Positions 2,705 through 37,924 of a stretch of 49,594 nucleotides of DNA are shown one piece after another; the first letter of the stretch is position 1, and the number at the start of each line of letters is the position of its first letter. The position numbers and the translations under genes are program-made. Origin of the DNA: Candidatus Thalassospirochaeta sargassi (lineage in GTDB: Bacteria; Spirochaetota; Spirochaetia; UBA9216); the NCBI GenBank assembly GCA_028532855.1, contig JAQQAL010000052.1, forward strand, positions 1 through 49,594. The letters run 5' to 3'. A model generated the notes under the pieces. That model saw only the letters and a program-made list of their open reading frames with translations. It did no database searches and was not told the DNA's origin.

Positions 2705-4252
2705 ATGGATAAAATTCTCGTATTTGATTTCGGCAGTCAGACAACGCAGCTGATAGCAAGGCGAATTCGCGATTTCGGCGTTTACACCGATATAGTGACA
2801 GCCGAAAGCGAATGTACACCAGGGCTGCTGGAAGACGTAAAGGGAATAATCCTGTCCGGCTCACCATACTCGGTTTATGAGGAAGGCGCGCCGGTTCCGC
2901 ACCCATCAATATATAAAACCGGACTTCCTATGCTGGGAATCTGCTATGGATTTCAGCGGATGACGGCTGATAATTCCGGAGAGGTTAAAGCTCTTGACAA
3001 GACCGAATACGGCCGGTCCGCAATTAACTATAAAGAAGATTCACCTTTGTTTGCAGGGATCCCCGACGGTTTTATCTCATGGATGAGCCATGGCGACAGT
3101 ATCGCCAGCCTGGGTGAAGGTTTCAGGCTTATTGCTGAATCTGAACATCATATTGCCTGCGGTTACAATGAGAAATTTAATGCCTACGGCATACAGTTCC
3201 ATCCGGAGGTCTCACACTGCGAACACGGCACTGACATTTTGAAGAACTTTGTTACCGGTATCTGCGGAGCCGACACTGGCTGGGATATGGATACCTATCT
3301 GAAACAGGAGATGGAAGCTGTCAGAAAACAGGCCGACGGCAGGGATGTTCTTCTGCTTATATCAGGCGGGGTTGATTCTACGGTTGTAGGCGGCCTTCTG
3401 CTTAAGGCTCTTGACCCGTCAAAGGTACATCTTATGTATATCGATACCGGTATGATGCGTAAAAACGAATCAGCCGAGGTTGAGGCAGGCTTAAAGAAGC
3501 TTGGTGCTGAGAATCTTTATCTGATAGACGCATCCGATCGTTTTCTCACTGCACTTAAAGGCGTGAGTGAGCCTGAAAAAAAGCGTGAGATTATCGGTGA
3601 TCTTTTTATAAAGGTTCAGGAAGATGAGATTAACAAGAGGCTTCAGGGTGATTATATGCTTGCCCAGGGTACTCTTTATACTGATCTGATTGAATCTGGA
3701 AAGGGTGTAGGAAAAAAGGCCCAGGTTATAAAATCTCACCACAATGTACGTTCGCCCCTGGTTGAGGCCAAGCGAGATGCGGGACTGATCATCGAACCTT
3801 TAGGGAAACTCTACAAGGATGAGGTTCGCGAGCTCGGCAGAAAGGTCGGGATCAGCGAAGAAATAATCCGCCGACATCCCTTTCCGGGGCCGGGTCTTGC
3901 AGTCAGGATTATCGGCGACATCACAGTTGAAAAATGTGACGTTCTCAGGGAAGCTGACTGGATTTTCATCAACGAACTGAAATCCCGCGGCCTCTACGAC
4001 AAGATATGGCAGGCTTTTGCTGTACTGCTCCCTATACGCTCTGTGGGCGTTGCCGGTGATCTGCGTGAATACGGCAACGTACTTGCGCTGCGGGCTATAA
4101 CAAGCAGCGACGGCATGACCGCCGACGTATATCCATTCGATACTAAAGACATCCTCGAAATTTCATCACTTATAACAAATTCCGTCCGAGGAATCGGTCG
4201 CGTTGTGTACGACATATCGTCAAAGCCGCCCGCGACTATCGAGTGGGAATAA
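2705..4252 (+). CDS. guaA: GMP synthase (glutamine-hydrolysing)
   Basis: Aminates XMP to GMP. The N-terminal class I glutamine amidotransferase domain shows ILSGSPYSVY, the nucleophile Cys in GICYGFQ (residues about 79-85) and the His/Glu pair in QFHPEVSH. The ATP-pyrophosphatase domain follows with the PP-loop SGGVDSTV (about 222), and the C-terminal dimerisation domain ends with KPPATIEWE, the usual end of GuaA. At 515 residues the length is normal. Last gene before a strong terminator. Confidence 0.97.
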   Translation: MDKILVFDFGSQTTQLIARRIRDFGVYTDIVTAESECTPGLLEDVKGIILSGSPYSVYEEGAPVPHPSIYKTGLPMLGICYGFQRMTADNSGEVKALDKTEYGRSAINYKEDSPLFAGIPDGFISWMSHGDSIASLGEGFRLIAESEHHIACGYNEKFNAYGIQFHPEVSHCEHGTDILKNFVTGICGADTGWDMDTYLKQEMEAVRKQADGRDVLLLISGGVDSTVVGGLLLKALDPSKVHLMYIDTGMMRKNESAEVEAGLKKLGAENLYLIDASDRFLTALKGVSEPEKKREIIGDLFIKVQEDEINKRLQGDYMLAQGTLYTDLIESGKGVGKKAQVIKSHHNVRSPLVEAKRDAGLIIEPLGKLYKDEVRELGRKVGISEEIIRRHPFPGPGLAVRIIGDITVEKCDVLREADWIFINELKSRGLYDKIWQAFAVLLPIRSVGVAGDLREYGNVLALRAITSSDGMTADVYPFDTKDILEISSLITNSVRGIGRVVYDISSKPPATIEWE

Positions 4253-4273
4253 AAAAACTAATCATTTATAGAG

Positions 4274-4302
4274 ACCGGCATTTTTACAGATGCCGGTTTT
4301 TT
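4274..4302 (+). terminator. Rho-independent terminator after guaA
   Basis: Perfect 8-bp stem: 4274-4281 (ACCGGCAT) pairs with 4290-4297 (ATGCCGGT) across an 8-nt loop, followed at once by a run of six T. It closes the purine gene row 22 nt after the guaA stop. Confidence 0.9.
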
Positions 4303-4349
4303 CATTTTTCGACATTAGACAAAGGCTTTTGGCAGAATGGTAAGATTCC

Positions 4350-5009
4350 TCAGTTAAGTATAAATTCAGCTAATTGAGAAACTTCCGCAAAATAATAATC
4401 GCAATGCTCCCTCATATATTTTTCTATTTCAGGAACCTTCTGTCCCCAACCTGCGCCGATTATCTTTATTCCTGCATTTTTTGCCATTTCAAGACCGGGT
4501 TTTAAATCATCAACCATTATCATATCTGACGGCTCAATTCCGTATTTATACTTTATCTGCTCAACAGGCCACACCGACGGCTTCCTTTTAGATTCATCAT
4601 AATCCCAGCCGAAGATAATATCAGGATGAACCCCCTCGCCGTTAACCCTGTAGTGACGGCTGATGTTGTCTACTTCGGAATGAGAGACGACCGCAATTAT
4701 GCCGCCGGCATCCTGAAAACCTTTAATCAGGCTTGTAATGCCGGGAAAGAAATGAGGATTAGCATTTTCATTGAATTTTCGCCATATATCGTATTCAACT
4801 TTGATTTCTTCTTCATTGAACCCAAGCTCCCCAGTAAAATATTCCATTACTCCCGGTTCAAAGTTTTTACGAAACCAATCCTCCAGGCTTACAGGTTCAA
4901 GCTGCGGCCTCATTTGTTTAATTGTCTCAACGTGGGCGGGATAATGTATTTCAGCTGTGCTGCTGACGGATGTGTCGTCATGATCCAGTATCAGGCATTT
5001 ATATCTCAT
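4350..5009 (-). CDS. HAD-superfamily hydrolase (phosphatase-like)
   Basis: A 219-residue haloacid-dehalogenase-fold protein, probably a small-molecule phosphatase or phosphoglycolate phosphatase-like enzyme. Motif I is DHDDT near residue 9 (nucleophile and acid Asp), motif II is the Ser in VVSHS, motif III the Lys in KRKPS, and motif IV the paired Asp in MVDDL. A helical cap lies between motifs I and II. The substrate cannot be read from the sequence. It is transcribed away from the LOG-family gene and has no Shine-Dalgarno sequence; see the promoter at 5017-5046. Confidence 0.85.
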   Translation of the reverse strand: MRYKCLILDHDDTSVSSTAEIHYPAHVETIKQMRPQLEPVSLEDWFRKNFEPGVMEYFTGELGFNEEEIKVEYDIWRKFNENANPHFFPGITSLIKGFQDAGGIIAVVSHSEVDNISRHYRVNGEGVHPDIIFGWDYDESKRKPSVWPVEQIKYKYGIEPSDMIMVDDLKPGLEMAKNAGIKIIGAGWGQKVPEIEKYMREHCDYYFAEVSQLAEFILN

Positions 5010-21715: not shown

Positions 21716-22237
21716 ATGCAGATGGTAGATGCACAAATTCCTACCCGGGAACCTACAGACGAAGAAATCACAAAACAGACTGAAATCATAGTTGGTGAGC
21801 TCATCGGCAGAAAAGGGGCTCTTATCCCCATCCTTCAAACCCTGCAGGAGCTGTTCGGATATCTTCCCGAAACCGCACTTAAAAGAACCGGTGAACTTAT
21901 GAAAATTTCATACAGTGAGGTAGCTGGGGTTGTCAGCTTCTATAAATATTTCTCAATAGTCCCACGAGGAAAATACTTAATCAGGGTATGTTTGGGGACA
22001 TCCTGCTATGTGCGCGGTGGGAAAGAGGTCCTTGAAAGCCTTAAAAACAACCTGGGCATAGATATTGACGAAACAACAGAGGACAGGCTTTTCTCACTCA
22101 AAGTGGGTAGATGTTTCGGTGCCTGCGGCCTCGCTCCGGTAATAATGATTAATGATGATATTTACCGCCGCGTGAAACCCTCGAAAGTCGGCGAAATCCT
22201 TCAAAGCTATCGTGTTCAGGAGGATACTGATGATTAA
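21716..22237 (+). CDS. hydC: NADH-dependent [FeFe] hydrogenase, NuoE-like [2Fe-2S] subunit
   Basis: A 173-residue thioredoxin-like ferredoxin subunit related to NuoE. The N-terminal helical bundle has LIPILQTLQELFGYLPETAL, followed by VVSFYKYFS and the cluster ligands CLGTSC (residues about 92-97) and CFGACGLAP (about 133). AGGAG precedes the ATG closely. It moves electrons within the HydABC complex that couples NADH and ferredoxin to hydrogen in fermenters. First gene of the operon; it overlaps hydB by 8 nt. Confidence 0.93.
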   Translation: MQMVDAQIPTREPTDEEITKQTEIIVGELIGRKGALIPILQTLQELFGYLPETALKRTGELMKISYSEVAGVVSFYKYFSIVPRGKYLIRVCLGTSCYVRGGKEVLESLKNNLGIDIDETTEDRLFSLKVGRCFGACGLAPVIMINDDIYRRVKPSKVGEILQSYRVQEDTDD

Positions 22238-25200
22238 TCAGATTAAAGATCTTGAAAAAATCAGGGAAAGTCAGAAAGAGATCCTTGATTTCCGTATGCT
22301 TTCGACTGAAGATACATCAGATATTTTAGATCAGATGATTTCTGAAACAGGCAGATACGATATCGCGCTATGCATGGGAACCAGCTGTCAATCGTCAAAA
22401 TCAACCGAGGTAGCTGCCGCTCTGGAAAAAGAAATTGCCAAATACAGGCTTGAAGACAAAGTAACAATTGTGCGAACGGGCTGTAACGGTTTTTGTGCTG
22501 TCGGCCCGATAATGGTTATGTATCCAGGTGGCGTTCTGTATAACGGAATGGACGCGGAAGATGTTCCGGAAATTTTTGAGGAACATATAATCAACCATCG
22601 CCTGGTTGAAAGATGCATGTACCATCATCCTGTATCTGATGCGGTTATTCCAAAATACATGGATCTCCCGTTTTTTGCAAAGCAGGAATTGCGAGTTCTC
22701 AGAAACAAGGGAATTATTAATGCAGACAGTATCGAAGAATATATAGGCCGTGACGGATATTTTGGTTTTGCCAGGGCATTAACAGAACTCAGTCCCGAAG
22801 ATGTAATTGATGAGGTAAAATCATCAGGACTAAGGGGCCGAGGAGGCGGGGGATTCTTAACTGGTCTGAAATGGTCTTTCTGTAAAAACTCTCAAAGTGA
22901 TAAAAAATACATCCTCTGTAACGCCGACGAGGGGGATCCCGGGGCATTCATGGACCGCTCTATATTGGAATCCGACCCACATTCGGTCATCGAAGGGATG
23001 CTCATAGGCGCATACGCGATAGGTGCCGATGAGGGGTTCATCTACTGCCGCGCAGAGTACCCGCTGGCCCTCACCCGTCTTGAAACAGCGATTGCAAACT
23101 GTGAAAAAAACGGATTACTAGGTAAAAACATCCTGGGAACCGGCTTTAATTTTAAGCTGAATATCTCTCGGGGTTCAGGCGCATTCGTCTGCGGCGAAGA
23201 AACAGCACTCATGAACTCAATTGAAGGCAGGCGGGGAGAACCCAGACCCAGACCTCCGTTTCCGGCAGTAAAAGGACTTTGGGGTAAACCCTCAGTGCTG
23301 AATAACGTTGAAACCTTTGCGAACATCCCTCTGATTATGTTTAACGGCTATGAATGGTATCGCACAACCGGCACTGAAAACTCACCGGGAACCAAAATCT
23401 TCGCCCTTACAGGAAATGTCAGAAACGTCGGCCTAGTTGAAGTTCCCATCGGCACAAGCCTTGGGGACCTGATTTTTGAGATCGGCGGAGGGATGCAGGA
23501 GGGGAAGGTTTATAAATCTGCTCAGATAGGCGGCCCCTCGGGCGGCTGTATACCGAAAAGCCACTTAAGTGTTTCACTTGATTTCGAATCTCTGCAGGAG
23601 CTCGGCGCCATTATGGGTTCCGGCGGACTGGTTGTAATGAGCGAAGACACATGTATGGTTGATGTCGCCAAATTCTTTCTTGAATTCGTTCTTGAAGAAT
23701 CATGCGGAAAATGCGTCCCCTGCCGTGTCGGTATTAAACGTATGCATGAAATACTTGAACGAATCACAACCGGCTATGGTGAGGAAGAGGATATTGATAA
23801 ACTGATAAAATTAGGGACAATAATCAAGCAGACCTCATTATGCGGCCTTGGTCAGACAGCACCTAACCCTGTTCTCTCAACAATACAGCATTTCAGACAT
23901 GAGTATGAGGATCACATCGTTCACAAACATTGTGAAGCCGGGGTCTGTCCGGGTCTTGTACGGGCGCCATGCCAGAGCGCATGTCCCGCAGGTGTCGATA
24001 TTCCGGGCTTTATAGCTCTGATAAAGGAAAAACGCTATGCGGAAGCCCTTAAGCTGCACAGGGAGAAAAATCCGTTTGCCGCAATCTGTGCCAGGGTATG
24101 TTTTCACACCTGTGAAGATAAATGCCGCAGGGCAATGCTTGATGAGCCCGTTTCGATCAGGGCTCTTAAACGCTATCTGGTCGAACAGGAAATAGTAGTT
24201 CAGCTACCGGAGATACTTGAGAACAATATAAACGCAGCAAAAAAGGTCGCCGTTATAGGCGCCGGGCCGGCTGGGTTGTCCTGCGCCTATTTTCTAGCGA
24301 GGCTGGGTTATAAACCTGTTGTTTATGAATCCGAGAGCAGGCCTGGCGGCATGCTGACCCAGGCTATTCCAGCGTACAGACTGCCGCGAGAAGAAATTGC
24401 CCGCGAGATAAGAATGATAGAGCGAATCGGGGTTGAAATAAACTGCGAAACAGTACTCGGCCGCGACATATCAATTCAACAGCTGCGAGACAATGGATTT
24501 GAAGCGATATTTCTTGCGGCGGGAGCACCGGTCGGCAGCAGCCTGGGGATTCCAGGCGAAGAAGCCGACGGGGTTGACGACGCGCTTAACTTCCTCAGGC
24601 ATTATAATATTCGCGGGAATGTCAGAATTAACCGTAATGTGCTTGTTATCGGCGGAGGAAACGCAGCTATTGACGCAGCAAGAACAGCCATCCGGCTTGG
24701 TGCTGAATCAGTGACTATTGTGTACCGTCGAAAGAGAAGCCAGATGCCTGCTTATCAGGAAGAGGTAGAAGAGGCAATTGTTGAAGGTGTAAAGCTTGTC
24801 GATCTAACCCAGCCGGTTGAGGTTGTGAAATCAGCCGATGGCAAGGTTGCAGGACTAAAATGCCTTCATATGACCCTGGGCGACTTTGATAAACAGGGCC
24901 GAAGAAGGGCGGTTAAAGAGAATGAGGAATATTTTATACTGAAGGGTGACCAGATTATAACTGCTATTGGCCAGGGCATTGATAAATCAATCTTTAATGA
25001 CATTGAGGGTCTTGAGTTTAATGAGAAAGGCTACATTAAAATCGATAAAAGCACAGGCAAAACCTCAATAAACTGGCTGTATGCAGGCGGTGACAACTGT
25101 TCAGGGCCTGCATCGGTAGTTAAGGCTATACATGCGGGAGAGGTGGCAGCGGTAGGAATTGATTATAAACTCAGCGGAGAGGACCATGCGTTCTGGAGGG

Positions 25201-25415
25201 AAGAACGAAAGGTTGAAACGGCCTTTGATCCTGATGCTGATCCGGTTCCATACCCCAGAGAAAAATCGCCCCTGATACCGGCAGAAAAACGGAGAGCAAA
25301 CTTTGACGAGGTTGAACTGCCCTGGTCTGAAGCCGTGGCAATGAGACAGTCTGCAAGGTGTCTGCGCTGCGATTACGGCAAACCGGCAATTCCCAGGGAG
25401 GTAATAAATGACTGA
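22230..25415 (+). CDS. hydB: NuoF-like NADH/FMN hydrogenase subunit fused to a GltD-like flavoprotein
   Basis: About 1,061 residues in three parts. Residues about 1-125 are a thioredoxin-like [2Fe-2S] domain (CMGTSC, CNGFCAVGP). About 140-560 are the NuoF core: GRGGGGFLTGLKW, NADEGDPGAFMDRSILE for FMN/NADH, and the SCGKCVPCR...SLCGLG [4Fe-4S] site. About 565-1061 are a GltD/NfnB-like unit with two N-terminal [4Fe-4S] motifs (CQSACPAGVDIPG, CARVCFHTCEDKC), an FAD loop GAGPAGLSCAYFL and a second dinucleotide loop GGGNAAIDAARTA followed by YRRKRSQMPA. The ATG at 22230 has GGAGG upstream; an earlier GTG at 22212 is less likely. The extra flavin domain offers a second NAD(P)H port for electron bifurcation. 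Confidence 0.93.
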   Translation: MINQIKDLEKIRESQKEILDFRMLSTEDTSDILDQMISETGRYDIALCMGTSCQSSKSTEVAAALEKEIAKYRLEDKVTIVRTGCNGFCAVGPIMVMYPGGVLYNGMDAEDVPEIFEEHIINHRLVERCMYHHPVSDAVIPKYMDLPFFAKQELRVLRNKGIINADSIEEYIGRDGYFGFARALTELSPEDVIDEVKSSGLRGRGGGGFLTGLKWSFCKNSQSDKKYILCNADEGDPGAFMDRSILESDPHSVIEGMLIGAYAIGADEGFIYCRAEYPLALTRLETAIANCEKNGLLGKNILGTGFNFKLNISRGSGAFVCGEETALMNSIEGRRGEPRPRPPFPAVKGLWGKPSVLNNVETFANIPLIMFNGYEWYRTTGTENSPGTKIFALTGNVRNVGLVEVPIGTSLGDLIFEIGGGMQEGKVYKSAQIGGPSGGCIPKSHLSVSLDFESLQELGAIMGSGGLVVMSEDTCMVDVAKFFLEFVLEESCGKCVPCRVGIKRMHEILERITTGYGEEEDIDKLIKLGTIIKQTSLCGLGQTAPNPVLSTIQHFRHEYEDHIVHKHCEAGVCPGLVRAPCQSACPAGVDIPGFIALIKEKRYAEALKLHREKNPFAAICARVCFHTCEDKCRRAMLDEPVSIRALKRYLVEQEIVVQLPEILENNINAAKKVAVIGAGPAGLSCAYFLARLGYKPVVYESESRPGGMLTQAIPAYRLPREEIAREIRMIERIGVEINCETVLGRDISIQQLRDNGFEAIFLAAGAPVGSSLGIPGEEADGVDDALNFLRHYNIRGNVRINRNVLVIGGGNAAIDAARTAIRLGAESVTIVYRRKRSQMPAYQEEVEEAIVEGVKLVDLTQPVEVVKSADGKVAGLKCLHMTLGDFDKQGRRRAVKENEEYFILKGDQIITAIGQGIDKSIFNDIEGLEFNEKGYIKIDKSTGKTSINWLYAGGDNCSGPASVVKAIHAGEVAAVGIDYKLSGEDHAFWREERKVETAFDPDADPVPYPREKSPLIPAEKRRANFDEVELPWSEAVAMRQSARCLRCDYGKPAIPREVIND

Positions 25416-27171
25416 TTTAACAATTAACGGAATTGAGATTTCAGTAGAAGACGGAACTACAATACTTGATGCAGCATCCAAAATAGGCGTTACAATTCCC
25501 ACGTTGTGTCACCTTCAGGGACACGAGCCTCTTGGTGCCTGCAGAATATGCGTTGTTGAGGTTGAGGGCGCTAGATCCCTGATGCCGTCATGCGCAACCC
25601 CTGTTACAAGGGGGATGGTTGTAAAAACAAATACACGTAAGGTTCGTGAAGCAAGAAAGCTCATTGTTGATCTGCTACTATCAGAGCATGAAGGCAATTG
25701 TCAATTCTGCGATAGATCAAACGACTGTGAACTAGAAAAAATTGCATCATCAATAGGTATTTCCAAACCATTATATGCCGGCGAGAAACCTGAGGCACGA
25801 TTCGACTATACGACTAAAGCCCTGATAAGGGATACAGGTAAATGTATTAAATGCAGAAGATGTATTACCGCATGTAATGAAATACAGGCTGTAGGCGCCC
25901 TTTTTCCGCAGAATCGCGGCTTCGAAACCGTAATAGGACCCGCTTTCACCTCAGACCTTGCTGACGTACAGTGCGTACAGTGCGGTCAGTGTGCAGCGGT
26001 ATGTCCTGTAGGAGCAATAATAGAACGTTCAAACATTGATGATGTATGGGAGGCTATAGACAACCCCGGGAAACATGTTGTTGTTCAGACAGCACCAGCC
26101 ATAAGAGCAGCTCTCGGTGAATGTTTCGATTATGAGCCGGGAACCCTGGTTACCGGTAAAATGATAACTGCATTAAGGTCACTCGGATTTGATGCAGTCT
26201 TCGATACAAACTTTGCTGCTGATCTTACAATTATTGAAGAAGGTAATGAGCTGCTTACCCGCCTTAAGAAAAAACTTGTTAACGGAGAAGATATTGCCCT
26301 ACCGATGTTTACCAGCTGTTCTCCCGGATGGATTAACTATGCGGAATATTTTCATCCCGATTATCTAAACAATATTTCAAGTTGTAAATCACCGCAGCAG
26401 ATGTTCGGTGCTGTTGCAAAAACCTATTACGCTCAAAAGCAGGGGATAGATCCTGCTGATATAGTCGTTGTCTCGGTCATGCCTTGCACTGCAAAAAAGT
26501 ATGAAGCCGCCCGCGATGAGATGGCCGACAGCGGCTTTACCGATGTGGATTATGTGCTTACAACACGAGAGCTCGGTAAGATGATAAAATCTACCGGAAT
26601 TGATTTCCGCAGCCTTCCCGACGGCGTTATGGACAACCCCCTGGGGGTATCCTCGGGCGCCGCGGATATTTTTGCCAACACCGGCGGGGTTATGGAGGCC
26701 GCAATAAGAACTGTCTATGAGCTTGTAACAGGCAGAGAGCTTCCGTTCGAGAACCTCCACCTGACACCGGTTGCCGGGCTTAAAGGCTTTAAAGAGGCAT
26801 CTCTTACCATTGAGGGAACTGTACCGGCATGGAGCTTCCTTGAGGGGGTAGAGGTCAAGGTTGCGGTAGCCCACGGTCTTAGCAATGCCGCGGAGGTTTT
26901 CCGCAGACTTGAAGAAGACCCAGGACGTTACCATTTTGTTGAGGTGATGTCATGCCCCGGCGGCTGCATCGGCGGCGGCGGGCAGCCCCGTTTCACCGAT
27001 GATAGTGTCAGGCTGAAAAGGATTAACGCAATATACGCTGAGGATGAGGGTAAACCGATAAGGAAATCACACATGAATCCTATGATCACCCAGATTTATG
27101 AGGAGTTTCTGATAGAACCATTGGGCGAGAAATCGCATCATCTTTTACATACACATTATGCAAAAAAATAG
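25408..27171 (+). CDS. hydA: [FeFe] hydrogenase catalytic subunit
   Basis: A 587-residue M3-type enzyme. The N-terminal [2Fe-2S] domain (CHLQGHEPLGACRIC) is followed by a His-Cys cluster motif (HEGNCQFCDRSNDC) and two [4Fe-4S] clusters (CIKCRRCITAC, CVQCGQCAAVCP). The H-domain has L1 TSCSPGW (residues about 302-308), L2 MPCTAKKYE and L3 EVMSCPGGCIGGGGQP. L1 carries Ser where the textbook motif has a second Cys (TSCCP). GGAGG precedes the ATG, which overlaps hydB by 8 nt. It makes or consumes hydrogen in the cytoplasm using NADH and ferredoxin through HydBC. Confidence 0.95.
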   Translation: MTDLTINGIEISVEDGTTILDAASKIGVTIPTLCHLQGHEPLGACRICVVEVEGARSLMPSCATPVTRGMVVKTNTRKVREARKLIVDLLLSEHEGNCQFCDRSNDCELEKIASSIGISKPLYAGEKPEARFDYTTKALIRDTGKCIKCRRCITACNEIQAVGALFPQNRGFETVIGPAFTSDLADVQCVQCGQCAAVCPVGAIIERSNIDDVWEAIDNPGKHVVVQTAPAIRAALGECFDYEPGTLVTGKMITALRSLGFDAVFDTNFAADLTIIEEGNELLTRLKKKLVNGEDIALPMFTSCSPGWINYAEYFHPDYLNNISSCKSPQQMFGAVAKTYYAQKQGIDPADIVVVSVMPCTAKKYEAARDEMADSGFTDVDYVLTTRELGKMIKSTGIDFRSLPDGVMDNPLGVSSGAADIFANTGGVMEAAIRTVYELVTGRELPFENLHLTPVAGLKGFKEASLTIEGTVPAWSFLEGVEVKVAVAHGLSNAAEVFRRLEEDPGRYHFVEVMSCPGGCIGGGGQPRFTDDSVRLKRINAIYAEDEGKPIRKSHMNPMITQIYEEFLIEPLGEKSHHLLHTHYAKK

Positions 27172-27733: not shown

Positions 27734-29689
27734 TTAATCTACCTGCATCAGAAAATCAAATTCCTCATCATCAACTTCTCTTGCAAAACGCAATAATTCT
27801 TCATCGGAACAGTTTGCCATTTCATGGAAGGTCGTAGACTTGTCACTGTCGATATCCCTTCTGTAGTTAGGGTATGTTGTCTGATAGAACGCAAGCCTCT
27901 TTTTCCTGTGTATCCCCATCTCAATCATCTTGACAGCGGCCTGCCTTATAAGTTTCAATTTTTCAAGCAGGTCCTCTTCTGAATCGATACTCCATACACC
28001 CAGAGCTATAGGTTTTTCATCATTATTAATATCTCCGGAAAACTCACCTCGAAGTAATTCGTTTCTTGGTTTACCGAGGTATTGCGCGAAGTCGAGATGC
28101 TCGGCAAGCTTTCTGTCGGAAGCTCTGAAATTTCCGGTTTCAGGGTCCATAGTAAAAATAATTACATTTTCAAAGGCCTGACCATAACTTTTCAGTCTTG
28201 CTCCTGTATATAGATCTATATCCCCAACTGTATCAAGCAGATATGTTTTTCGCTTCTTAATATCTTTTGATATGTTAAACAGCCAATCGTTCAAAATTAC
28301 ACGCTCTGATTTAAGAGAGTAAATAAACTCCCTGAGTTTTTTTCCGCCGCCGGGATTTTCAAAGAATCCAAGAATTGTTCTGTATATTGATCTGATATTA
28401 TTATAATTACTGAACATTAGTATCAGGTCAAACATGAATATCTCCATTTTACGAAGCTGCCATATGTAAGTGATGATTTCGTTGCGTGTAAGCTTTTTCT
28501 CAAGGTTGAATTCTTCCCAGAGATCCTGAAATTCGCTGAATCTTCTATGCATCTTCATGTATCGCTGATCTATTCTCACTGTTGAATGATGAAACCGAAT
28601 CTTCCAACCGGTTCCCTTAGAACTGCTTTGAATACTGATATTCTCAGAGCCGAAGGTTGAGTAAATCTGGATTGTACCGAGACCTTCACCGGCCTTTCGA
28701 TGCTTAGTGGTCTTTCCTACGAACTCAGGACGTCCGCTATCATCCTTTTTAAGCAGATCTTCTGAAATACCGATACCGTTATCCCTGATAGAGAGTATTA
28801 TTTCGTCATTACGTTCCGCTAGTGATATCTTAAGAAACCCCTTTATGCCTTTTTCTTCTATCGCATCTAGTGAATTAGAAACTATATTTATCAAAGCCCG
28901 TCCTATGTTTTCATGGTAGCCAAGAACCGTTGCATTTTTTGTATTCAACTTAATTTGCAGGCAGCATTTTATATGAGAGGCCTGCACAAAGGGAACTATT
29001 CGGTCGAGGATTAAATCCCTGAGATTTACCTCATGCATAATCTTTCTTGAATCCCTGAAATAATTCAGCATATTTATCAGGGTAGTAGTCTCACGGTTTA
29101 TATCTTCAACGATTTTATCACAGTTTTCCGCGGAAAGAGAATCTACCATATGCGAGAGTAATCTTACAATCTTCCTGGCATCATGCCTGGTCTTTCCAAT
29201 CTCGGCAGATTCCGGTAAATCTTTTTTTTCCTTATCCCGCTTGTTCAGCAGCTTCTCTTTTGTTCCGGTTATAAGATAATACACCAGGTTCCTGTACACG
29301 ATTGATTCTCCGAGGGTGAATCCCTGTTCTTTAAAAAACTCGAGGGTATCTGGCTGCTTTTCCCAGAGGTAAAGGTATATCTCAGCATCGACAGGAACCA
29401 TATCAGCAAGATGATGAATAAACGCTTTTCCAATCCCGCGGCTTCTACCAAACGGGCTTACGACTATTTTGTATATATGAAATGTTTTTTGCTCAGCATC
29501 TGAGTACACCTGCATATAACCGAGAATCTCGCGTTCTTCTATCCATATATAACTGTGATCATAATCCTTTTCTATTTCAGAATCCCTGACATAGGGAGAA
29601 GGTATAATAAAAGTATCAAGGTTTAGAAGTGGATTTCTTCTTATTCTAGTTTCTATAGTCGGCGTAAGCTTGAAGATTTTTTCACTCAT
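27734..29689 (-). CDS. GNAT acetyltransferase fused to a GHKL (histidine-kinase-like) ATPase, uncharacterised C-terminus
   Basis: A 651-residue soluble protein with three regions. Residues about 45-140 are a GNAT fold with the acetyl-CoA loop GRSRGIGKAF (81-90). Residues about 165-370 combine a helical segment (RHDARKIVRLLSHMV, a His in a DHp- or Spo0B-like position) with a GHKL ATPase: N box NIVSNSLDAI (268-277), G1 DNGIG (303-307), G2 GEGLG (334-338). Residues about 371-651 are a mostly helical region I do not recognise, ending in an acidic tail. It has no membrane helix and no receiver domain. It is divergent from a small membrane protein gene with interleaved promoters. Function is unknown. 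Confidence 0.8.
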   Translation of the reverse strand: MSEKIFKLTPTIETRIRRNPLLNLDTFIIPSPYVRDSEIEKDYDHSYIWIEEREILGYMQVYSDAEQKTFHIYKIVVSPFGRSRGIGKAFIHHLADMVPVDAEIYLYLWEKQPDTLEFFKEQGFTLGESIVYRNLVYYLITGTKEKLLNKRDKEKKDLPESAEIGKTRHDARKIVRLLSHMVDSLSAENCDKIVEDINRETTTLINMLNYFRDSRKIMHEVNLRDLILDRIVPFVQASHIKCCLQIKLNTKNATVLGYHENIGRALINIVSNSLDAIEEKGIKGFLKISLAERNDEIILSIRDNGIGISEDLLKKDDSGRPEFVGKTTKHRKAGEGLGTIQIYSTFGSENISIQSSSKGTGWKIRFHHSTVRIDQRYMKMHRRFSEFQDLWEEFNLEKKLTRNEIITYIWQLRKMEIFMFDLILMFSNYNNIRSIYRTILGFFENPGGGKKLREFIYSLKSERVILNDWLFNISKDIKKRKTYLLDTVGDIDLYTGARLKSYGQAFENVIIFTMDPETGNFRASDRKLAEHLDFAQYLGKPRNELLRGEFSGDINNDEKPIALGVWSIDSEEDLLEKLKLIRQAAVKMIEMGIHRKKRLAFYQTTYPNYRRDIDSDKSTTFHEMANCSDEELLRFAREVDDEEFDFLMQVD

Positions 29690-30481: not shown

Positions 30482-30778
30482 TTATGCAGTGAAATATACC
30501 GGATCAAATAATCTTCCGTATCGGCTCTTTTCCATCCACGGAGCAACAGATTCCCGCCATTTCAGGTAATGCGGTGTTTCTTTGTGAGCCTTTACGGAAT
30601 CTATATCCTTGTATATTTCGTAGATTAAAAACAAACCCTCTGTATCGCTCGAACGACTTAAATCCCATCTGATATTTCCCGGTTCTTTAATTGTCCCCTT
30701 GTGATTGTCCTCAGACGCTTCAATAAAATTCTGTTCAAAACCGTTTTTAACATAAACTTCTACACAATAAGCGATCAT
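30482..30778 (-). CDS. ABM-domain (putative quinol monooxygenase) small protein
   Basis: A 98-residue dimeric alpha-beta barrel of the antibiotic biosynthesis monooxygenase type, like YgiN or LsrG: VEVYVKNGFEQNFIEASEDNHKGTIKEPGNIRWDLSRSSDTEGLFLIYEIYKD, then HKETPHYLKW. These cofactor-free enzymes act on quinols or small aldehydes or ketones. The exact substrate is unclear. AGGAG precedes the ATG. Its start overlaps the -35 box of the divergent fusion gene. Confidence 0.85.
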   Translation of the reverse strand: MIAYCVEVYVKNGFEQNFIEASEDNHKGTIKEPGNIRWDLSRSSDTEGLFLIYEIYKDIDSVKAHKETPHYLKWRESVAPWMEKSRYGRLFDPVYFTA

Positions 30779-30807
30779 TGAAATACTCCTGTTTTTTTTA
30801 TTATAAT
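30778..30807 (+). promoter_or_regulatory. Leaderless-type promoter of the transporter-ferritin fusion gene
   Basis: TTGAAA (30778-30783), an 18-nt spacer and a perfect TATAAT (30802-30807), then 6 nt to the ATG at 30814. No ribosome site is seen. The -35 box shares bases with the start codon of the divergent ABM gene. Confidence 0.65.
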
Positions 30808-30813
30808 CTGATT

Positions 30814-31542
30814 ATGGATATACGAATAATACTTTCAACTTTTTTTGTTATTTTTCTTGCCGAGCTTGGAGATAAAACCCAGTTTGCAGCAATGGCGGCA
30901 TCTGCGGGCAGTAATCAGCCCGGCTCAGTTCTTATCGGAACTATTCTGGCCCTTTCCTTATCTTCGGTTATAGCAGTAGCAGCAGGTTCACTTATAGGGA
31001 AATATATTCCCATAAAATATATCAAAATCGCCGCGGGTGCTCTTTTTATTATATTCGGCGTTTTGTATCTTAGAGAGGCTCTTATACCTGAACAGGAAGA
31101 ATCTGTTTCAGAAACATCATCCTTCAGTATATTTAATCAAACCGTGGTTAGGGCTGCATCTGCTTTTGAAGAGAATGAAATAATCATGCTTGAAGCTGCA
31201 ATTGAAGTATTGGAAGATAAACAGCATATCGAAGTTATGTATAACATTCTGGCTGATGAAAAAAACCATCTTGAATCCGTATCTGAACTGAAAGTGAATG
31301 ACTTCAAGCCTGAACCTGAACCGGAAGAACTGGAAAAAATCCTACTGCTTGATGAAGCATTTGCCTGCAGTGAGGATGAGGAATGCCTGCTTAAAGATAT
31401 TTATGACAGAGAAACTGCAATGGCTGATTTTTACCGGATAAGCGCGGCAAAATCTAGTGTTCCTGCAGTTAAAAATGCTCTTACAAAGCTGTACAAAGAA
31501 GAGAAACGTCACGCATCAGAGATAGCAGCATTGCTGGTTTGA
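30814..31542 (+). CDS. Single-repeat GDT1/UPF0016 transporter domain fused to a ferritin-like di-iron domain
   Basis: A 242-residue protein. Residues 1-90 hold three membrane helices with the family motif ELGDKTQ (17-23) of the TMEM165/GDT1/MneA cation transporters. Most members carry two such motifs; here there is one, so a homodimer is implied. Residues about 105-242 are a four-helix ferritin/rubrerythrin-like domain with DEKNH (148-152, ExxH), DRET (198-201) and EEKRH (229-233, ExxH) as likely metal ligands. The ATG at 30814 fits the promoter and the transporter start; the frame is open further upstream but lacks signals. It may couple Mn or Fe export to oxidation or sensing of the metal. 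Confidence 0.85.
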   Translation: MDIRIILSTFFVIFLAELGDKTQFAAMAASAGSNQPGSVLIGTILALSLSSVIAVAAGSLIGKYIPIKYIKIAAGALFIIFGVLYLREALIPEQEESVSETSSFSIFNQTVVRAASAFEENEIIMLEAAIEVLEDKQHIEVMYNILADEKNHLESVSELKVNDFKPEPEPEELEKILLLDEAFACSEDEECLLKDIYDRETAMADFYRISAAKSSVPAVKNALTKLYKEEKRHASEIAALLV

Positions 31543-37332: not shown

Positions 37333-37565
37333 TTTTTATTTTCAAACCTCGTTACAACTAAATTTAGATTCCAAAAACCTTTTTCAAAAAAGCTTTCTAC
37401 CATCCTGAATTATAACAGAAATTCTATCTGGTTCCCAGATGATTTCAGGTATTTCAGACAATAGATGCCCCGGTTTTCTGTCATGGGACAGGCAACCAAT
37501 AACGTTGCTGAAAAAACATATAGGATTACAATTTTGGGAAGATATCCCGTATAAAGACCGGGTCC
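37333..37565. other. Intergenic stretch between GH130 and ssrA
   Basis: About 230 nt without a convincing gene. It must contain the promoter of the GH130 gene and the 3' end of the tmRNA precursor. I see only a short CTGTC/GACAG repeat near 37480 and a 4-bp CCCG/CGGG hairpin just after ssrA without a T-run, so no secure terminator or promoter. Confidence 0.5.
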
Positions 37566-37924
37566 TGGAGGTGGGGGGAATCGAACCCCCGTCCTAACGG
37601 GCCCAATATAAGCGTCTACAGGTTTAGTCTCTTCTTAGGTTTTTCGGAATCGGAACGGCGAAAAAACAGGCCAACCGAAACTATATCCCGGAATAATTTC
37701 CCCATCTATGCCCGGACTCATAAACAGGTAAGCACCGGTTTATTACAGGAGCAGCCAGTCTTCGGTGCAGCATACCAGCGTCCCGCACTGCTATAATTAA
37801 GCAGCTAAAGCGTAATCAGCTTCGAAGTTATCTTCAGCAATTACATTAGGTTCCAGTTTAAAGAGTTAGGGCTCTACCTGCAGCCTATACCGTAACATCC
37901 GCCAGTCGAAACCAGTGCACCCCC
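37566..37924 (-). ncRNA. ssrA: Transfer-messenger RNA
   Basis: A one-piece tmRNA of 359 nt. The 5' end GGGGGTG pairs with the 3' CACCTCC to form the acceptor stem. The T arm is GGGGG-TTCGATT-CCCCC and the discriminator is A at 37566; the terminal CCA is not encoded. The resume codon is GCT at 37838, and the tag reads AEDNFEADYALAA, followed by TAA at 37799-37797. Its protein partner SmpB is encoded about 1 kb away (38932-39429). It rescues stalled ribosomes. The DYALAA tag end resembles tags I recall from treponemes. Confidence 0.97.

Follow-up and report, generated by a model that had tools for sequence, protein, structure and literature searches.

A gene joining half of a GDT1/UPF0016 metal transporter to a ferritin-like domain (FLD) was identified at positions 30814-31542 on the forward strand of the window, the whole stretch of 49,594 nucleotides that was analysed. 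The gene is one open frame, which runs from an ATG at 30814 to a stop codon ending at 31542 and encodes 242 amino acids. The features of the gene and of its upstream side are given below; residue numbers are those of the window protein, and G000 denotes the window's own genome.

30482-30778, minus strand: divergent neighbouring gene for an antibiotic biosynthesis monooxygenase (ABM) domain protein (PF03992, E 1.4e-16)
30778-30815, plus strand: candidate promoter read from the sequence (TTGAAA at 30778-30783, 18-bp spacer, TATAAT at 30802-30807)
30814-31542, plus strand: complete fused gene, half GDT1 and FLD (single frame kept in 17 genomes)
30814-31083, plus strand: GDT1/UPF0016 half transporter, residues 1-90 (PF01169, E 6.9e-23; modelled helices)
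30862-30882, plus strand: GDT1 signature E-L-G-D-K-T-Q, residues 17-23 (conserved in the fused proteins)
31084-31128, plus strand: variable acidic linker, residues 91-105 (low model confidence at 94-103; 27% identity to G001)
31129-31539, plus strand: ferritin-like four-helix domain, residues 106-242 (ligands, profile matches, model)
31168-31170, plus strand: predicted metal ligand E119 in helix 1 (invariant in 23 FLDs)
31258-31269, plus strand: predicted metal ligands E149xxH152 in helix 2 (H152 invariant and E149 near-invariant in 23 FLDs)
31411-31413, plus strand: predicted metal ligand E200 in helix 3 (invariant in 23 FLDs)
31501-31512, plus strand: predicted metal ligands E230xxH233 in helix 4 (invariant in 23 FLDs)

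The locus and the reading frame

Close fused relatives are encoded in genomes G001, G002 and G016 (61, 50 and 36-38% identity, respectively). A frameshift merger of two genes, which the sequence-only reading had named as an outcome that would undo its proposal, was ruled out. The same fused frame is present in 17 genomes (16 besides the window's), and because it is conserved in the 16 others, the fusion is neither chance nor a frameshift artefact. The proposal itself, a GDT1 half fused to a ferritin-like domain, was borne out by this single intact frame. The window genome (3.8 Mb) contains a single PF01169 match, which is the fused gene, and the PF01169 search found no second GDT1 half hidden elsewhere in that genome. 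A broken remnant was observed in G003, which belongs to the same genus as the window (L104, about 3979-4463, minus strand). The start of the GDT1 half is missing from the remnant and the FLD is split across two frames. This is the sole broken copy seen, and since G003 carries only the remnant, the gene can be lost.

A palindrome scan placed ATAATCTGATTAT at 30803-30815, abutting the start codon of the fused gene. The putative promoter with this palindrome is a weak candidate because it is not conserved in G001, and no clear ribosome-binding site was read before the gene. The ABM gene lies beside the fused gene in the same arrangement in G001 and is absent in G002. A gene at 27734-29689 (minus strand), which also adjoins the fused gene in G001, encodes a 651-amino acid protein with an N-terminal GNAT acetyltransferase and HATPase_c kinase-like domains.

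Consecutive genes upstream, at 21716-27171, encode a NuoE-like protein, a NuoF/Pyr_redox fusion and the large subunit of an [FeFe]-hydrogenase. This cluster is of the electron-bifurcating type, with a CBS-domain gene following it, and it indicates an anaerobe. The tmRNA gene is located at 37563-37924 (minus strand) in the window and directly 3' of the fused gene in G001 (L102:4981-5341); the region between the two genes has therefore been rearranged.

Transporter half and ferritin-like domain

By motif and profile, the window protein is a GDT1 protein. Residues 7-82 cover the whole PF01169 profile (81.2 bits against a cut-off of 27, E 6.9e-23), and ELGDKT at residues 17-22 satisfies the GDT1/UPF0016 motif E-phi-G-D-(K/R)-(S/T). 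The string AELGDKTQ occupies residues 16-23, and E17, G19, D20, K21, T22 and Q23 are invariant in the alignment of the 17 fused proteins. The structure model predicts three membrane helices (residues 3-32, 36-61 and 67-90). This half was modelled by AlphaFold2 at a pLDDT of about 50-78, below the confidence of the FLD, so that the helix assignment comes mainly from the PF01169 match. The three-helix unit with ELGDKTQ described in the sequence-only reading thus agrees with profile and motif, its helices being modelled with modest confidence. Comparison with the G001 orthologue gave a dN of 0.04 and a dS of 1.49 for the GDT1 half. In the GDT1 family two halves form an antiparallel H+-coupled exporter, and characterised members move cations out of the cytosol.

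Ligands and predicted fold identify the second domain as ferritin-like. When 23 FLDs were aligned, the invariant or near-invariant positions came down, in essence, to the six ligands of a di-metal site of the rubrerythrin type, conserved even though these FLDs are only 13-43% identical to that of the window. Position 149 is D instead of E in some members in which the fused gene is paired with a second GDT1 half. The two ExxH motifs first noticed in the sequence, E149-H152 and E230-H233, accordingly belong to a full di-metal ligand set. A search with PF01169 and a PF02915-type profile had been suggested as a check. The PF01169 part held, while the window FLD, at 20.9-22.7 bits, falls just under the 22.8-bit cut-off of Pfam Rubrerythrin (PF02915); the profile matches 19 of the 23 related FLDs (E<=0.001, best E 1.6e-15). 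A profile of the FLD family matched solved di-iron ferritin-like proteins in the PDB, including TM1526 (1vjx, E 8e-16), symerythrin (3e-7) and sulerythrin, with 1vjx, 2fzf and 3qhb among the entries hit.

Structure prediction, which had also been proposed as a check for a four-helix metal site, gave a four-helix bundle by AlphaFold2 (mean pLDDT 86, pTM 0.80; helices around or above 90). The Foldseek matches listed for this model are ferritin-superfamily folds with a probability of 1.00 and E-values near 1e-3, none of them below 1e-3; weak Foldseek E-values are common for helical bundles. The FLD diverges from that of G001 faster than the GDT1 half (pN 0.36, pS 0.78, the latter saturated) and is still constrained. 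A rubredoxin-like [Fe(SCys)4] domain is absent from the C terminus, as helix 4 runs to residue 241 and closes the protein, and the FLD region contains two cysteines only. In G216, a separate ferritin-like protein (DUF2202) whose start resembles a signal peptide is encoded at L138:4014-4592, some 3 kb away from the fused gene.

Layouts, topology and gene neighbourhoods

Profile searches for fused genes were carried out class-wide (395 genomes) and phylum-wide (296 genomes), and all 17 genomes with a fused gene belong to Spirochaetota. The GDT1-FLD partnership occurs in three layouts. Eleven genomes (G000, G001, G002, G016, G216, G162, G501, G473, G454, G477 and G435) contain a fused singleton, the sole GDT1 found in the genome. 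Six others (G058, G140, G095, G037, G443 and G413) contain a pair, in which a bare half gene lies directly downstream of the fused half. In a further 10 genomes (G171, G201, G213, G105, G231, G115, G133, G085, G225 and G195) the FLD is encoded by its own gene immediately after a bare half, as in an operon; G177 has a bare half without an FLD. Fusion in 17 genomes together with adjacent separate genes in 10 is a Rosetta-stone pattern, which argues for a joint function. These arrangements suggest that the GDT1-FLD proteins export iron or manganese and form a family that had gone unrecognised.

A search with a full-length model found no fusion in three other phyla (192, 45 and 249 genomes, with GDT1 matches in 34, 7 and 73 of them), and restriction of the fusion to Spirochaetota is provisionally proposed from these three phyla. 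No FLD gene was found in the flanks examined of GDT1 singletons from other phyla or of 12 other Spirochaetota singletons. In a tree built on 94 columns of aligned GDT1 halves, the first and second halves of the pairs (pair-A and pair-B) and the operon-type halves form separate, well-supported groups. A single origin of the fusion is neither rejected nor established (AU p 0.41, from 94 columns and a poorly resolved tree).

Topology was read from the numbers of K+R in the loops of the N side and the C side under the positive-inside rule. The means for the six pairs are 0.83 (N side) vs 4.17 (C side) for the fused half and 5.83 vs 1.17 for the bare half, and the bias of the two halves is opposite in 6/6 pairs. 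Because of this opposite bias, the halves of a pair are predicted to be antiparallel and the pair-type FLD to be cytosolic, where it would stand in the place of the acidic central loop of two-domain GDT1 proteins. That loop is described as cytosolic by Demaegd et al. 2014 (PMC4067407). The homodimer raised as a check in the sequence-only reading was approached through charge bias. The fused singletons (n=11) have means of 3.45 vs 3.18 and look like dual-topology homodimers, with a charge that is balanced on average; the operon-type bare halves have means of 3.73 vs 2.82. The window protein is an exception among the singletons, and its bias of 4 vs 1 would favour an extracytoplasmic FLD, contrary to the pair type. 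Paired GDT1 half genes outside cyanobacteria were observed at L098-L101, L105 and L106, with the first gene C-in.

Genes for iron and manganese handling occur near several of the relatives. In G002, genes for a CRP-like regulator, a DtxR-family repressor, GDT1-FLD, FeoC, FeoB, a FecCD permease and an ABC ATPase form a co-directional run. FeoB and DtxR genes are convergent neighbours of GDT1-FLD in G140, while Fur, FeoB and a DtxR-FeoA protein are encoded within about 5 kb of the GDT1/FLD locus in G171. A divergent NRAMP gene lies beside the fused gene in G162. FeoB was found within 5 kb of 3/27 FLD-linked loci against 0.105 expected (Poisson 1.8e-4, with the distance picked after the first cases had been seen). 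It was found at 0/30 Spirochaetota GDT1 loci without an FLD, a contrast that is by itself non-significant (Fisher about 0.1). From these neighbourhoods, iron is at least as well indicated as manganese. No relatives of FeoB, DtxR, NRAMP, Fur or FecCD were found within the window itself. In G002, the 95-bp gap that separates the DtxR-family gene from the GDT1-FLD gene contains the palindrome TTAGGnnnnCCTAA (TTAGGATTGCCTAA, L143:10591-10604), which occurs once in 20 kb against 0.01 expected and was noticed post hoc; it is a possible metal-repressor operator. The palindrome scan found no regulatory palindrome common to the upstream regions of the fused genes.

Proposed function and comparison with known systems

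MbfA, the membrane-bound ferritin of Agrobacterium and Bradyrhizobium, is an iron exporter composed of an FLD and a VIT-type transporter. It is moderately probable that the window protein is part of an Fe(II)/Mn(II) exporter assisted by its FLD, which acts like MbfA on a different transporter chassis. The protein would be one subunit of an antiparallel secondary metal exporter of the GDT1 type, carrying a rubrerythrin-like di-metal domain. Two three-helix halves would form one pore, to which each supplies its E-x-G-D-K-T motif. The window type would probably be a homodimer of dual-topology copies; in the pair-type relatives a fused half would combine with a bare half to form a heterodimer. The FLD may bind two Fe(II), or Fe and Mn, at E119, E149, H152, E200, E230 and H233, and its anchor point would be the cytosolic end of one or both halves. 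Fixed to the pore in this way, it could capture excess metal, perhaps oxidise or sense it, and couple capture to expulsion, thus serving as a donor, ferroxidase or gate.

The metal may instead be manganese. Retention of the ancestral Mn(II) (or Ca) specificity, with the di-metal site, as sensor or gate, opening the pore at high Mn or mismetallating Fe, would agree with the Mn or Ca export of the characterised GDT1/MneA/Mnx members (PMC8236900, PMC7380456) and with the unaltered signature motif of the FLD-linked members. The NRAMP neighbour in G162 and the DtxR-family regulators suit Mn as well as Fe. However, the three independent FeoB neighbourhoods favour iron, the yybP-ykoY Mn riboswitch was not found near the loci searched, and a manganese exporter with a metal-sensing FLD is considered unlikely. 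The rubrerythrin-type ligand set and the [FeFe]-hydrogenase cluster in the window would both fit a membrane-tethered peroxidase/ferroxidase, in which the FLD scavenges H2O2 in an anaerobe needing peroxide defence and the GDT1 half brings in or takes away the metal of the FLD, or is mainly an anchor. The probability of such a function is small, since the protein has no rubredoxin-like electron-donor domain, the constraint on the GDT1 half (dN 0.04) is too strong for a mere anchor, and the bare second half at the pair-type loci implies a working transporter.

Iron uptake or distribution, in which the protein would aid Fe(II) acquisition and its FLD would act as a cytosolic metallochaperone, is suggested by G002, where the DtxR, GDT1-FLD, FeoC, FeoB and FecCD genes are co-directional and TTAGGnnnnCCTAA lies just 5' of the fused gene. 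An exporter would not be expected to lie co-directionally with FeoB, an importer, and this counts against the exporter reading. The possible operon is present in one genome only and characterised GDT1 proteins carry cations out of the cytosol (PMC7380456), which makes an uptake role very improbable. The FLD-assisted exporter remains the best reading, and two observations on the window itself count against it, namely its lack of FeoB, DtxR, NRAMP, Fur and FecCD relatives and the charge bias of its protein.

The sensing and expulsion of excess iron and manganese by bacteria are only partly known, and in the literature searched MbfA is the one case from which a role of the FLD on exporters is known. 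A second, unrelated transporter with such a domain would offer an independent test of FLD function. The series of separate genes, fused half, and fused plus bare half represents natural variants of a transporter that assembles in antiparallel fashion, and allows both topology and FLD function to be tested. Tentatively, and with some doubt, GDT1-FLD proteins may be iron exporters throughout Spirochaetota that arose independently of MbfA by recruitment of a di-iron domain to a GDT1 half, where it replaced the cytosolic acidic loop. If so, GDT1 chemistry would extend from Mn/Ca to iron, and evolution would have coupled a di-iron domain to an exporter on two occasions, with unrelated transporters. 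Against an iron exporter, the known GDT1 members move Mn and Ca, and the papers searched contain no description of iron export by this family.

In both MbfA and the proteins described here, a ferritin-like di-metal domain is joined to a cation transporter, and the MbfA analogy drawn in the sequence-only reading, which already noted a different transporter, holds as a working comparison. The MbfA model NF045676 (FeExpMbfA) weakly matches 6/23 FLDs (best E 2e-9). The transporter is of the VIT type (CCC1) in MbfA and a GDT1 three-helix half here, and the FLD is N-terminal in MbfA and C-terminal here. Unlike MbfA, the GDT1-FLD partnership also exists with its two parts in separate genes, or as a fused half accompanied by a bare one. 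The window protein was ruled out as a member of MbfA, as the domain order is reversed, a Pfam search gave no VIT match at E<=1, and the score against NF045676 is 13.8 bits with a cut-off of 450. The FLD of MbfA is cytoplasmic, as the charge bias predicts for the pair-type relatives; the singletons are balanced, and the window protein has the opposite bias. MbfA transports iron only with its cytoplasmic FLD, which shows ferroxidase activity (PMC7762939) and forms a dimer in solution (PMC4902296).

The single-domain GDT1/UPF0016 transporters (Mnx, MneA, Gdt1 and TMEM165) share the E-x-G-D-K-T motif, PF01169 and, by the model, three helices with the proteins described here, in which an FLD is attached or encoded next door. 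Demaegd et al. also report charge-balanced singletons and oppositely biased pairs, as found here, with pairs in cyanobacteria only (PMC4067407); the present pairs occur in Spirochaetota and have the reverse order of orientation, the first gene being C-in. A ferritin-like partner goes unmentioned in the GDT1 papers searched, PMC4067407 among them, and keyword searches of the open-access literature found none, although a prior description elsewhere is conceivable. COG1633/TM1526-type proteins and symerythrin/rubrerythrin have the same four-helix fold and ligand pattern. They are soluble, whereas the FLD described here is attached to a membrane-embedded transporter and has no counterpart of the rubredoxin domain found in classical rubrerythrin. 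Relative to the open-access literature searched, the new feature is a ferritin-like domain associated with a metal exporter on a transporter family previously unseen with it.
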